NCBI GenBank assembly: GCA_003635185.1
Contig: PYJA01000025.1
Span: 1 to 64,000 of the forward strand
DNA length: 64,000 nucleotides
Reading direction: 5' to 3'
From: Candidatus Poribacteria bacterium
GTDB lineage: Bacteria > Poribacteria > WGA-4E > WGA-3G
The notes below the pieces were generated by a model. The model was given only the letters and a program-made list of their open reading frames with translations, did not search any database and was not told where the DNA came from. This document shows, piece by piece, positions 41,021 to 57,535 of the stretch. Positions within the stretch are counted from its first letter, which is position 1. The number at the start of each line of letters is the position of its first letter. The position numbers and the translations under genes were made by a program.

Positions 41021-41039
41021 ATTCTTGAGGACTGACCAG

Positions 41040-41639
41040 ATGGCATTTACCGATTTCAATTCAATCGCGCAAGTGCAAGAAGCCTTCAAAATCAAATATA
41101 CCGAATCCGAATATATTCAATACGCGGATATTGAACCTTCCCAAGCATTTTTGGAAGAATTTGAATTCAGCCAGCGTCACATCAACGTGTTTTCATCAGA
41201 AGCATCCCGTTGCGAAAATGTGATTTACCCAGTTCTTAGGGACGTATACAAGAACTATGTGGAGTGGTTTGCATTGTGGAGTCATGAATTGATTTCTTAC
41301 GATGAGGATCTCAGCGGCACGCCGGACTATCTGATCTCAACAAAATCAGAGTTAGGAAAAACGGTACCAGGGACTCCGATCATTATTGTTGTAGAAGCAA
41401 AACGAAACGACTTTATAAAGGGATGGGGACAGTGTTTAGCTGAATTGGTTGCTGTTCAAAAAATCAACGATGATGATAAAAGAACAGTTTACGGAATTGT
41501 AACAGATGGCGAATTTTGGCAATTCGGGAAATTAGATGGAAATCAGTTTACGCGTAACGAAACTGCCCTTACAATCAGCGATTTAAAAAAGGTGTTCGGT
41601 GCGATCGGGTATCTGATGGATGCCAGTTTACCGAAGTGA
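41040..41639 (+). CDS. PD-(D/E)XK-like nuclease-fold protein (orphan)
   Basis: 199 aa from ATG 41040 (GAGG at 41027-41030); an in-frame TTG at 41025 is less likely. The middle has GTPDYLIS ... IIIVVEAKRND ... GWGQCLAEL, the spacing of the D...ExK...Q motif seen in HsdR-N and related PD-(D/E)XK folds. No methylase or specificity subunit is near. Such short orphan proteins are common in cyanobacteria and poribacteria; nuclease activity is inferred only from the motif. Confidence 0.65.
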   Translation: MAFTDFNSIAQVQEAFKIKYTESEYIQYADIEPSQAFLEEFEFSQRHINVFSSEASRCENVIYPVLRDVYKNYVEWFALWSHELISYDEDLSGTPDYLISTKSELGKTVPGTPIIIVVEAKRNDFIKGWGQCLAELVAVQKINDDDKRTVYGIVTDGEFWQFGKLDGNQFTRNETALTISDLKKVFGAIGYLMDASLPK

Positions 41640-42013
41640 AGTAATTGCAAGTTGGGTGCACGCGAAACTGAACATTGTAATAAGCGGTTTCTGTGTCTCG
41701 TTTTCTCGTCTGAACCAGCATGGACAAGGTTATACCATTTCCGATAATATATATCTCTTATGTAGCACAAACTGTCTGAAGTTTAAATAAGTATTTCGGT
41801 CCGGGGGCGAGGTTAGGAAACCTCGCCAGCAGCAGGTGTACATCTCTGCTGGCGAGGTTTCCTAACCTCGCCAATGTCCAAGCAATTGTGGATTTTACTA
41901 TAAAGGGTTTCTGTGTCTCGTTTTCTTGTCTGAACCAGAATGGACAAGGTTATGGGATTTATAGGATTATTGTTTTCTTATGCAGAAACACAAAATCTTG
42001 AAAGGAGATAGTT
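41640..42013. other. Intergenic region with repeats before the sulfatase gene
   Basis: Two copies of the family E text (GTTTCTGTGTCTCGTTTTCT...CTGAACCAG...GGACAAGGTTAT) at about 41688-41730 and 41908-41955 bracket a family C-related element (41761-41902). No gene. Confidence 0.6.
41761..41902. repeat. Family C-related element with GCGAGG core hairpin
   Basis: CTGAAGTTTAAATAAGTATTTCGGTCC, then the core hairpin 41807-41872, then CAATTGTGGATTTTACTATAA. The same order is at 54985-55217 and, partly, 52470-52556. Confidence 0.7.
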
Positions 42014-50819: not shown

Positions 50820-52385
50820 ATGACAAAACCGAATCTAAAATTAAAGATACATCATGACCAACTTACCTGGTTTCTTGCGATACTATTAAATGAGAGAGAA
50901 ATTTTCCAACTACTAATAAAAACTAACCTTGCTGTCGATTCAGACAAGTTGCATTCTACTTCAAAACAGGAGTTATTGAACCAGTTAACCAGCGCATTTT
51001 TCAGGCAATCTCATATTGACGAAATCGTTGTCAAACACCTCTCACAAAAAACGGAGGCTGCTATCTCAAGAGTAGGATATATGGTAGTTGATGAAATCCA
51101 GACTTTTTTCAAATCTCCTGGACCTTTAATTGAATCGGGGGAATTTGGTGAAGTGGTCTGGGCACTTTTAGCGGATTCTCGGGAAGATGTGCACTCACAT
51201 GGAATCGATTTATTGGCAGCAGCATATCAAAATCACATAGAACATCATGAGGTAGAGACACAGCAGTTGCCAGCTTATCTGGAAACGCCACAAGTGCCTT
51301 CCCCAGAAATTCAGACAAAATATACCCGTGAGTTAGAAAAAGCGCAGAAGCAGATTGATAGACAGACAAATGAAATTGAACATCTTAAAAGTGCTTTAGC
51401 GAACTTACAAGTTGAACACACAGCGATTGAGAAAAAAAATAAACAGATGAAACAGCAGTGTCAATTACTGCTTGAAGAAAATGAGGCATTAAAAATAAAA
51501 GAAGATTTATTTCAGGAGAATAAAAATCAGATTGTTTCTTTACAACAGGAAAATGATAACCTTCAAGAAAAAGCGACACAGTACGCGGAGACCAACGCCT
51601 CGCTTATGAAATTAGATGCTGAACACCAACAGCTTCTGACGAAATATAAGGATATCACAGCACAGCTCAATGAACTTACACAAATCAGAGCAACCAAGGA
51701 AACTTTCCTGGCTGAACTAAAATTAGTTGAAGAAACCATTTATAAGGAATCTCAAGCTTTAGAACTACTAAAAACCGATCTACAAAACCATTTTGGTGCT
51801 ATTGAAAAATCGCATGAAGCTTCACGAAACGCGCTTAATCAAATTCGGCAGACAGCGGGCTATTTAGACAAACCTGCCTTGGAACCTACAAATCAAACGG
51901 AGCGGACAGGAGCGCAAGAACGTGTCGGTGTATTCGTTGATGTGCAAAACATGTTTTACGCAGCGAAAGATCAGTTTGAAGGTCGAGTGGATTACATCAA
52001 ACTTCTGGACTTGATCGTTGGGCCACGACAACTCCTGGCCGCCTACGCCTATATTGTTCAGATCCCTGAAATCAAGCAATTTAATTTCATTTCTTTATTA
52101 GAACATAACGGCTACACAATTCGTAGTAAAGACTTGCGCCTGCGCGGAGACGGTTCCGCAAAAGGCGATTGGGATGTCGGTATCGCAGTAGATGTGGTTT
52201 CTATGCTCGGCACGTTAGATGTTGTGATTTTAGCCAGCGGCGATGGGGACTTTTGCCCGCTCGCGGAACTCATTAAACAACAACATAAGCGGATAGAGGT
52301 AGTCGCATTTGAGCACAACACGTCCATGGATTTACAAGCAGTGGCAGACCAATTTTTCCCGATAGGTGAAGAATTATTGATGTAA
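50820..52385 (+). CDS. NYN (PIN-like) ribonuclease domain protein with coiled coil
   Basis: 521 aa. Residues 1-150 form a helical N-terminal domain of unknown family. About 165-345 are a long Gln/Glu/Lys coiled coil. The C-terminal NYN/LabA domain has D374-x2-N377 (FVDVQN), D450/D452 (GDWDVG) and SGDGDF with D475 and D477, the acidic set of the PIN-like nuclease centre. CGGAGGACTC precedes the ATG. NYN proteins are metal-dependent ribonucleases; the target and the coiled coil's role are unknown. It is flanked by repeats, with no clear partner gene. Confidence 0.85.
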   Translation: MTKPNLKLKIHHDQLTWFLAILLNEREIFQLLIKTNLAVDSDKLHSTSKQELLNQLTSAFFRQSHIDEIVVKHLSQKTEAAISRVGYMVVDEIQTFFKSPGPLIESGEFGEVVWALLADSREDVHSHGIDLLAAAYQNHIEHHEVETQQLPAYLETPQVPSPEIQTKYTRELEKAQKQIDRQTNEIEHLKSALANLQVEHTAIEKKNKQMKQQCQLLLEENEALKIKEDLFQENKNQIVSLQQENDNLQEKATQYAETNASLMKLDAEHQQLLTKYKDITAQLNELTQIRATKETFLAELKLVEETIYKESQALELLKTDLQNHFGAIEKSHEASRNALNQIRQTAGYLDKPALEPTNQTERTGAQERVGVFVDVQNMFYAAKDQFEGRVDYIKLLDLIVGPRQLLAAYAYIVQIPEIKQFNFISLLEHNGYTIRSKDLRLRGDGSAKGDWDVGIAVDVVSMLGTLDVVILASGDGDFCPLAELIKQQHKRIEVVAFEHNTSMDLQAVADQFFPIGEELLM

Positions 52386-54027: not shown

Positions 54028-54056
54028 TTGACAACTCCTGCCTTGCATGGTATTAT
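54028..54056 (+). promoter_or_regulatory. Promoter upstream of the Sm/Hfq-like gene
   Basis: TTGACA (54028-54033), 17-base spacer, TATTAT (54051-54056). It is about 400 bases before the gene, with the inverted-repeat element between, so it may instead drive the element's transcript. Confidence 0.5.
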
Positions 54057-54202
54057 AACTATAGTTTGGACAGTTTCTATCCGTTTCACGTTGCGTTTTC
54101 AACAGAAAGTCTATTTTTGGACGAGTTTCGAATATGAATGGAAACCCAAGAAAATGCGGCACGCCAGCGGAGTGCTATGTGCGGAACACGGACCGCTCCG
54201 AA

Positions 54203-54315
54203 TGAAGATTAAAAAATAAATTGGGTAATTTGGCGAGGTTCGGAAACCTCGCCAGCAGCAGGGTACGCGTGTTTCATGCGGACAGAAAATTACCGAATTA
54301 ATAAATTAATCTTCA
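54203..54315. repeat. Family C inverted-repeat element
   Basis: TGAAGATTAAAAAAT...GGGTAATTT and AAATTACCGAATT...TTAATCTTCA ends, GCGAGGTTCGGAAACCTCGCC hairpin inside. No ORF. Confidence 0.7.
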
Positions 54316-54457
54316 TCTGGAACAAAGAGGGTTTCCGTTTTGATTTAATAACATAAGAGATAAACTAATTTCTGATATCAACCCACGTCTGAAAAATTGT
54401 CCAAACTATAGTCACGTCAAAAAATAAGTGTAAAAAATCTTTGAAGGAGGCAATCAG

Positions 54458-54928
54458 ATGCCACATCCCAATGATCCGCCGCCTGCGGTTGAAGCCGATA
54501 CATTCGATCGTTTTCAAGCTCCCGTGTTGTTGGTAACTTATGAAGGTAACAAAAAAGTGAATATCACCGGCATAGAGAAGTTCGATCTGTTGACATCTGC
54601 AGGGACGATCCCGAAAATCAATATCGTTTTCAGTCTGCTGGCAGATGCGGCTGACAAGTTAGGTGCTGCTTTGTATATGAACAGGGAAATAGAAGAGCTA
54701 GAGCTGCGCACACATAGGGATCCGAAGAAACGTAAGAAAGTGAGAGGTGTCCGCCCGATGCGCAAAATTGCGGGTAAGAAGGTCAAAGTGACGATGCGAA
54801 ATGGACACGTGCTTTACGGTACCCCGATGGAATATAACCAATTCAACTTCACAATGCAGGTGAGAGAGCAGTTGGTGTTGGTGTATCGACACGCGGTGTA
54901 TGCAGTAGAAATTGTGGAAGAATCTTAG
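54458..54928 (+). CDS. Putative tandem Sm-like (Hfq-like) RNA-binding protein
   Basis: 156 aa, GAAGGAGGC upstream. The C-terminal segment (about 106-154) has the Hfq pattern: V-x-V-x-M-x-NG-H-V-x-x-G (Sm1) then QFNF and V-x-V-Y-R-H-A-V (Sm2, cf. YKHA of Hfq). The N-terminal segment (about 20-65) reads LVTYEGNKKVNITGIEKFDLLT, similar to an Sm1 strand set. A basic linker (KKRKKVRGVRPMRK) joins them. Two Sm units in one chain would form a trimeric rather than hexameric ring; this is an inference. Next gene is tyrS with no clear link. Confidence 0.6.
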   Translation: MPHPNDPPPAVEADTFDRFQAPVLLVTYEGNKKVNITGIEKFDLLTSAGTIPKINIVFSLLADAADKLGAALYMNREIEELELRTHRDPKKRKKVRGVRPMRKIAGKKVKVTMRNGHVLYGTPMEYNQFNFTMQVREQLVLVYRHAVYAVEIVEES

Positions 54929-55249
54929 CAGGAAGCGTGTTGCCGCCTGACTCACGTTATTATAACCTAAGTTGTCACCTTGTCCCACAATCTGTCCGAA
55001 GTTTAAATAAATATTTCGGTCCGGGGCGAGGTTAGGAAACCTCGCCAGCAGCAGGTGTACAGCTCTGCTGGTGAGGCGGGGAATCATGGCGAATACCACA
55101 CGGGGAATGCCGGACGCGCATTCATACCGTTGATTTGGCGTATTCGCCCAATGGCATTGGTCCCGTTGATTTCTTCCGAACCTCGCCACTGTCCAGGTAA
55201 TTGTGAATTTCACTATAAACGGTAAAAATTTCTTGGAAGGATAACTCCG
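54929..55249. other. Intergenic region filled by nested palindromic repeats
   Basis: Repeat element 54985-55217 (see repeat entry and findings) occupies most of it. A ribosome site TTGGAAGGA precedes tyrS at the end. No gene. Confidence 0.65.
54985..55217. repeat. Nested GCGAGG palindrome with two inserted core units
   Basis: CACAATCTGTCCGAAGTTTAA, TTCGGTCC and GCGAGG...CCTCGCC begin it. The second GCGAGG-type hairpin is interrupted by a unit starting CGGGGAATC and ending TCCCGTTGATTT, which itself holds a second unit (55098-55136) starting ACACGGGGAATGC and ending ATACCGTTGATTT. Tail CCAGGTAATTGTGAATTTCACTATAA. Confidence 0.7.
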
Positions 55250-56499: not shown

Positions 56500-56662
56500 G
56501 ACACTTTCAGTCGACTGCTGGCGAGGTGGGGAATGCCAACAGGCATTCATACCGTTGATTTCTTCCTAACCTCGCGGGTGCAGAATATCCAATTCAGCCG
56601 ACTGCTGGCGAGGCGGGGAATGCCAACAGGCATTCATACCGTTGATTTCTTCCGAACCTCGC
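56500..56662. repeat. Two tandem GCGAGG palindromes, each carrying a core unit
   Basis: First: CTGCTGGCGAGG (56515-56526), core unit 56527-56561, TCTTCCTAACCTCGC. Second: GCGAGG (56608-56613), core unit 56614-56648, CTTCCGAACCTCGC. Separated by GGGTGCAGAATATCCAATT. Confidence 0.7.
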
Positions 56663-56663
56663 T

Positions 56664-56877
56664 AACTTTGTTGATTATTTTAGGGGAGGGAGCAGACATC
56701 ATGTTACGGCGTTTCAGAGAACATATCAGAAGAGAAAAAGAAATGATAGCGGAGGCAAGAGCGGAAGTTTACAGAGAAGTTGCAGCGTGGGATCGCAGGC
56801 GAAGAGAGGCTGAAGCGCGGGGTGTGGAATTCAACGAACCACCACCGACCCAAGAAAGCAATCAATCAAAAATATAG
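56664..56877 (+). pseudogene. Truncated duplicate of small membrane protein 57101-57535
   Basis: Matches 57319-57535 almost base for base (a few substitutions and one 12-base loss), but only the last helix and coiled-coil part is present; the first ~70 codons are missing. The open frame upstream (from 56533) translates the palindromic repeat and is not protein. Flanked by GACACTTTCAG(C/T)CG...CTGCTGGCGAGG repeats on both sides. Confidence 0.7.
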
Positions 56878-57100: not shown

Positions 57101-57535
57101 ATGAAAAATCTTGAAAAGGAAGACGCTATAGAGGACAAAAACAAACGATCATCAATATTTACCGTCAAAGATGCTGAAAATACTATTTTGTGGTTCAGTT
57201 TCTATGTAGTAATGCTTATCGTTTGTGTCATTTTGCACCAGCGTTTTATTCAAAACTACAAAGTAATTGATTCTCTTTACTTTGTAGTTGATAACATCTC
57301 AAAAATAATAGCAGCATCAACTTTGCTGATTATTTTAGGGGAGGGAGCAGACATCATGTTACGGCGTTTCAGAGAACATATCAGAAGAGAAAAAGAAATG
57401 ATAGCGGAGGCAAGAGCCGAGGCAAAAGCGGAAGTTTACAGAGAAGTTGCAGCGTGGGATCGCAGGCGAAAAGAGGCTGAAGCGCGGGGTGTGGAATTCA
57501 ATGAACCACCACCGACACAAGAAAGCGATCAATGA
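57101..57535 (+). CDS. Small two-helix membrane protein with coiled-coil tail
   Basis: 144 aa. Helices at about 28-48 and 62-82, then a basic/acidic coiled coil (EHIRREKEMIAEARAEAKAEVYREV...) reaching the C-terminus. AGAGG lies 10 bases before the ATG. A truncated copy is immediately upstream (56664-56877). Its fold recalls small membrane-anchored coiled-coil proteins; function unknown. Confidence 0.65.
   Translation: MKNLEKEDAIEDKNKRSSIFTVKDAENTILWFSFYVVMLIVCVILHQRFIQNYKVIDSLYFVVDNISKIIAASTLLIILGEGADIMLRRFREHIRREKEMIAEARAEAKAEVYREVAAWDRRRKEAEARGVEFNEPPPTQESDQ

Follow-up and report, generated by a model that had tools for sequence, protein, structure and literature searches.

A candidate two-domain Hfq-like protein on an inserted segment of a Candidatus Poribacteria genome, and its tandem-Sm relatives in the phylum

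Ordinary Hfq proteins, whether bacterial (PF17209, TIGR02383) or archaeal, like MJ1435 of Methanocaldococcus jannaschii (PDB 2qtx/4x9c), carry one Sm domain per chain with a Y-K-H motif at the proximal site, and in E. coli the gene lies in the order miaA-hfq-hflX. The Hfq_1 or Hfq-related family (PF21979; NF047718 in cyanobacteria) is single-domain as well. The second Hfq of Burkholderia, Hfq2 (189 aa), resembles the protein analyzed here in being a long Hfq-like protein; it comprises one structured Sm region and an unstructured glycine-rich C-terminal extension (PMC7074383), and with its single Sm region it was rejected as a precedent for a tandem form. Here we analyze a gene found in a 64,000-nucleotide stretch of a Candidatus Poribacteria genome (contig PYJA01000025.1 of assembly GCA_003635185.1; hereafter, the window), whose product is predicted to hold two Sm domains joined by a linker (Table 1). 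The first-pass annotation of this gene, made from the sequence alone, had read it as a tandem Sm/Hfq-like protein with a basic linker between its halves, and both the linker and the two halves are borne out by our results. The most probable explanation, to which we assign a probability of about 0.65, is that the window protein belongs, with two domains, to the Hfq/Sm superfamily and originated when a single-domain Hfq-like protein was duplicated and fused; as an accessory paralogue of a core form in the phylum, it would make an Hfq-type RNA-binding ring.

The open reading frame is a real gene under purifying selection, since its ribosome-binding site is good and synonymous changes dominate (seven versus one other) in the comparison with a near-identical copy (99% identity) in genome G045, giving a ratio of nonsynonymous to synonymous rates (dN/dS) of 0.04; with more distant relatives, for which dS approaches saturation, the ratio is 0.21-0.23. 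For the full-length protein, AlphaFold2 predicts two helix-plus-barrel units, with a predicted local distance difference test (pLDDT) of 86.3 and a predicted template modelling score (pTM) of 0.81. The window protein has both Sm domains at the spacing seen in the poribacterial tandem-Sm family and keeps Lys53 together with Gly116 and Gly121. No Rfam families were found around the gene.

Judged by sequence, the C-terminal half is Hfq-type, as the first-pass annotation had proposed. It matches the Pfam Hfq family with an E-value of 2.8e-4, below the Pfam cut-off (the NCBIfam match is also below its cut-off), and the archaeal Hfq MJ1435 in the PDB with E 1.3e-5. A profile of 24 family sequences places Hfq in the top 37 of 53 PDB matches (best E 6.9e-11), and a profile of 109 relatives aligns with E. 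coli Hfq in hhalign with Prob 95 and E 3.8e-8. The C-terminal unit of the whole AlphaFold2 model also matches Hfq structures, with a template modelling (TM) score normalised to the target of 0.81-0.86 for MJ1435. The proximal-site motif is present as Y143-R144-H145, position 143 being aromatic in 100% of 109 family members and position 144 basic in 93%, with His145 kept in 90%; because these residues are kept there, the fuller RNA pocket probably sits in the C-terminal half. This conservation also bears on the possibility that the two domains are generic SH3/Sm-like scaffold barrels, as in WYL, Tudor and Rof proteins, which mediate protein-protein contacts and have lost RNA binding. Small barrels are reused for many contacts, the WYL domains of defence regulators share the Sm/SH3 fold and do not all bind RNA (PMC9122601), and Tudor domains and a viral protein do appear lower in the fold search with the whole model. 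Nonetheless, conservation of the Hfq proximal-site motif (aromatic-basic-His) extends over the 109 members, and the cold-shock and S1 domains fused to tandem-Sm in the core form and in locus L101 are nucleic-acid-binding domains, which likewise counts in favor of an RNA-binding protein. The matches are, moreover, specifically to Hfq, and a WYL or Tudor identity was rejected on these grounds, leaving a scaffold role quite improbable.

Modelled alone, the N-terminal half yields a helix plus an Sm-like five-strand barrel (AlphaFold2, pLDDT 83.4), and a Foldseek search of the PDB with this model returns Hfq in all 50 of the matches listed, with TM scores of 0.56-0.64. The claim that both halves have a predicted Sm fold stands because the C-terminal unit matches Hfq structures and the N-terminal half alone finds only Hfq among those 50 matches; the models thus support the first-pass view of this half as a diverged second Sm fold, which places two such domains in a chain where Hfq has one. 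The lysine alone of the Y-K-H motif is retained in it. As for its origin, L105 is a single-domain protein of 93 aa from G002, an outlying member that is the only sampled genome from another family of the phylum. It matches PF21979 (E 2.6e-10) and PF17209 (E 5.5e-7), and aligns both with the N-terminal half of core proteins over the full Sm length (E 2.2e-6, 35% identity) and with their C-terminal half (E 1e-5). Since this single-domain protein aligns with each half, both appear most simply derived from one Hfq-like domain.

Several results weigh against this reading. The window protein scores below the family cut-offs of both PF17209 (20.9 bits against 27) and TIGR02383 (20.4 bits against 61.7). 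Sequence searches of PDB and Pfam with the N-terminal half gave no direct match, its Foldseek E-values are modest (0.027 at best, up to 0.1), and comparing the profiles of the two halves directly gives a weak match (E 0.0011-0.013, Prob 21% or less). In addition, the defence associations of the family described below are compatible with a function other than that of an RNA chaperone. The missing sequence matches and the modest Foldseek values would fit an explanation in which the C-terminal half alone is Hfq and the N-terminal half is an unrelated small barrel placed near Hfq by AlphaFold by chance. This is largely contradicted by the uniformity of the structural matches listed, by the near-invariance of the Lys56 equivalent in the family and by the full-length similarity of the core N-terminal half to L105, and we consider it very improbable.

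A main result of the survey of the phylum is that the duplicated form is the rule in Poribacteria and ordinary Hfq is nearly absent. A family-profile search detects tandem-Sm proteins in 80 of 85 Poribacteria genomes, and in all 56 that are at least 90% complete. When the same 85 genomes are searched with the Hfq family model, a single-domain Hfq exceeds the cut-off in G002 only, and every other match above it corresponds to the C-domain of a tandem-Sm protein (the PF17209 cut-off being exceeded in 28 genomes); as a control, the search recovered Hfq above cut-off in five named genomes, including E. coli and B. subtilis. Hence, the expectation of the first-pass annotation that a duplicated form would be unusual does not hold, all the more so as the NCBIfam model NF010691 (PRK14091) already describes a single chain (about 176 aa) with two Hfq segments. 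Its remark that an ordinary hfq is missing does hold, and extends beyond the window: none lies above cut-off in this 81.7% complete assembly, where three tandem-Sm genes are found instead. Besides the window copy, these are L002, a paralogue sharing 57% identity with it, and the cold-shock-fused core form (L003/L055). At that level of completeness the absence is not decisive alone, and it is the result for the phylum that decides. Relatives of the cold-shock-fused paralogue in GTDB genomes all belong to Candidatus Poribacteria (54/54 loci), in a motif-based scan that reaches close relatives only and does not prove the family absent elsewhere. Plasmid, phage and viral collections yielded no relatives. 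A literature search, covering open-access papers and few subscription papers and no preprints, found nothing on Hfq or tandem Sm proteins in Poribacteria; an earlier description is possible.

The recurrent core form has about 300-345 aa and starts with a cold-shock domain, which a linker joins to the tandem-Sm pair, with an Arg/Pro-rich N-terminus in place of the cold-shock domain in some outlying lineages; L101 presents the architecture S1-S1-Sm-Sm-CSD, CSD being the cold-shock domain. If the preferred explanation is right, RNA would probably be bound mainly by the C-domain, at U-rich 3' ends or tracts, whereas the diverged N-domain, which keeps mainly the lysine equivalent to Lys56, may serve above all to complete the ring. 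A pseudo-hexamer of six Sm domains would then be built from three chains, in which the basic linker and the acidic N-domain would create two unequal kinds of ring position. The core cold-shock/tandem-Sm protein becomes a natural candidate for the Hfq substitute of the phylum, presumably performing Hfq-like work. A phylum of sponge-associated and other bacteria would thus dispense with ordinary Hfq and use asymmetric two-domain Sm proteins, most often with a cold-shock domain. These would parallel, in bacteria, the unequal (heteromeric) Sm rings and would offer a specific protein with which to ask whether small-RNA regulation exists in Poribacteria.

The window copy itself lies on a recent insertion and shows signs of mobility. 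The tree groups it with the G045 copy and then with L008 of genome G033, inside the L002 clade (well supported). In genome G041 the flanks of the segment that carries it are contiguous and the segment is missing, and only two of 18 genomes of the genus have it; the paired TATAA at its ends suggests a target duplication. At its left end lies an element resembling a miniature inverted-repeat transposable element (MITE), the end of which, CTATAGTTTGGACA, occurs 46 times in the genome, in several cases as inward pairs about 340-350 bp apart. For several of these copies the distance to the start of a contig is identical (705 or 827), which is the pattern expected when a transposon family breaks the assembly. 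The dispersed hairpin repeat GCGAGGTTNGGAAACCTCGCCAGCAGCAGG has 32 exact copies in the genome, against 0 for the reversed control, and a third copy in the window at 41807-41836. We infer that the window copy is a mobile accessory paralogue of the core cold-shock/tandem-Sm protein. An NYN-domain gene two genes upstream was considered as a partner and dropped, the stretch preceding the insertion and the intervening secreted-protein gene being present in genomes, among them G041, that lack the tandem-Sm gene at this place. A coiled-coil protein encoded at 50820-52385 has a C-terminal NYN nuclease-like domain (PF01936, E 2.8e-31). Elsewhere in the window, a 204-aa open reading frame at 41025-41639 resembles, by eye alone, a PD-(D/E)XK restriction-type protein, and those at 56533-56877 and 57101-57535 are near-duplicates that share about 70 residues at about 90% identity.

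Table 1. Coordinates of the tandem-Sm gene, its product and the surrounding segment in the window
Feature	Position	Strand	Remarks
Tandem-Sm (Hfq-like) gene	54458..54928	+	156 aa plus stop, ATG start; open reading frame and translation
Ribosome-binding site GAAGGAGG	54443..54450	+	7 nt before ATG; read directly
N-terminal Sm domain (predicted), residues 12-78	54491..54691	+	helix, then strands 23-27, 30-39, 43-46, 49-52, 56-61; AlphaFold2
Lys53	54614..54616	+	present in 97% of the 109 members; equivalent, by alignment, to Lys56 in the YKH motif of E. coli Hfq
Basic linker, residues 79-107	54692..54778	+	isoelectric point (pI) 11.4
C-terminal Hfq-type Sm domain, residues 101-156	54758..54925	+	Pfam, PDB, fold and profile searches
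Tyr143-Arg144-His145	54884..54892	+	counterpart of Hfq Tyr55-Lys56-His57; alignment
Inserted segment, 1157 bp	54058..55214	.	holds the window gene only; between a secreted-protein gene and tyrS
TATAA at both segment ends	54054-54058, 55214-55218		
MITE-like element, 355 bp, 19-bp inverted ends (ACTATAGTTTGGACA...)	54058..54412	.	left end of segment; ends 45 bp before ATG
Hairpin repeat GCGAGGTTNGGAAACCTCGCCAGCAGCAGG, copy 1	54232..54262	+	
Hairpin repeat GCGAGGTTNGGAAACCTCGCCAGCAGCAGG, copy 2	55025..55055	+	

The relatives of the window gene point to a possible second use of the tandem-Sm module, as the part of restriction-type enzymes that recognizes RNA or single-stranded DNA. It is fused to GmrSD proteins, where a cold-shock domain often follows it (L039, L091, L093-L096, L100), to sacsin-like ATPases of the PADLOC TmtA type (C-terminal in L036 and L037, N-terminal in L038 and L092) and to UvrD helicases with a GIY-YIG insert (L090, L097, L098, L099), some of them with S1. 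Three of the latter (L090, L097, L098), in which the module is C-terminal, have as neighbours another UvrD-like gene and one of MFS type. A candidate defence locus is seen in L036, L037, L038, L092 and L171, where a TmtA-type ATPase, with tandem-Sm fused or adjacent, lies next to a DrmD-like SNF2 helicase and in many cases also to a type ISP enzyme. In solo tandem-Sm proteins of about 280-300 aa (L051, L102, L167, L169, L038:4240-5082), the N-terminus includes short segments resembling DrmD and the TmtA protein, which look like remnants of a deletion inside a helicase-ATPase-tandem-Sm locus. A conserved small open reading frame (cluster c16, 92-108 aa; L042:8077-8352) with no Pfam match lies just upstream of an L002-type tandem-Sm gene in four genomes.

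These associations invite an explanation in which tandem-Sm is first of all a defence accessory, serving as an RNA (or single-stranded DNA) recognition or scaffold part of restriction and anti-phage enzymes, the window gene being a solo copy with a partner encoded at another locus, or an orphan. The fusions just described favor it, as does the fact that ATPase and tandem-Sm are adjacent separate genes in G057 and a single gene in L036/L037. So do the L028 group of solo copies, which occupies one conserved hot spot with a type ISP enzyme, a DrmD-like helicase or a TmtA-like gene, or remnants of these, nearby in 15 of 17 loci (the exceptions being L168 and L175, the latter on a 5.3-kb contig), a count that takes in loci of shared ancestry and amounts to one history; the rarity of the window insertion in the genus; and the nearest relative, L008, which overlaps (ATGA) the stop of L041, a gene for an N6_N4 methyltransferase whose C-terminal stretch is Mrr-like. 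On the other hand, the window copy has no methyltransferase-Mrr partner and no adjacent defence gene in the window, and its product matches no PADLOC model, whereas the fusion partners of its relatives do. For seven relatives in its own clade the locus is stable and contains phytanoyl-CoA dioxygenase-like and ABC genes instead of restriction genes, and other solo groups (L176-L181, L040, L042-L046, L048-L050) have none of these restriction or defence genes among the neighbours examined. The core form of the phylum, in turn, is not a defence protein by its architecture. We consider a primary defence function unlikely, while a part for the window copy as RNA-recognition partner of defence enzymes is plausible, if unproven.

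More generally, and tentatively, since we would place it somewhat short of even odds, the two uses may belong to a single history: Poribacteria would have swapped ordinary Hfq for tandem-Sm proteins and then reused tandem-Sm as a portable module by which GmrSD, type ISP, methyltransferase-Mrr, sacsin-like ATPase/DrmD-like helicase and UvrD/GIY-YIG enzymes recognize RNA, with the window gene as a mobile solo copy. Repeated fusion to restriction-type enzymes would then represent a new way to bring them to RNA, and whether some DNA-restriction families sense transcripts would become testable.

Among known defence systems, the CoCoNuT type IV restriction systems contain cold-shock domains and have been proposed to target RNA (PMC11090510); they are McrBC-type GTPases for which the same paper mentions no Hfq or Sm-like domain, and provide a conceptual precedent only. 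The Hfq-related family matches L105 and, weakly, the C-terminal half of the core form (L055, E 2.3e-4), and the window protein matches neither PF21979 nor NF047718. NF010691 shares the two-domain plan of the window protein, which nonetheless scores 17.8 bits against its cut-off of 270, with one segment matched and the N-terminal half without a match: E. coli Hfq aligns with positions 19-90 of this model, and the window C-terminal half with 84-160. Tandem Hfq is thus already known, but at the sequence level the poribacterial family misses that model widely. Compared with bacterial and archaeal Hfq, the window gene lies outside the E. coli gene order and its product differs in its two Sm domains per chain, its diverged N-domain, its basic linker and its scores below the family cut-offs, whereas its C-terminal half has the same predicted fold and the same motifs, including the YKH site.
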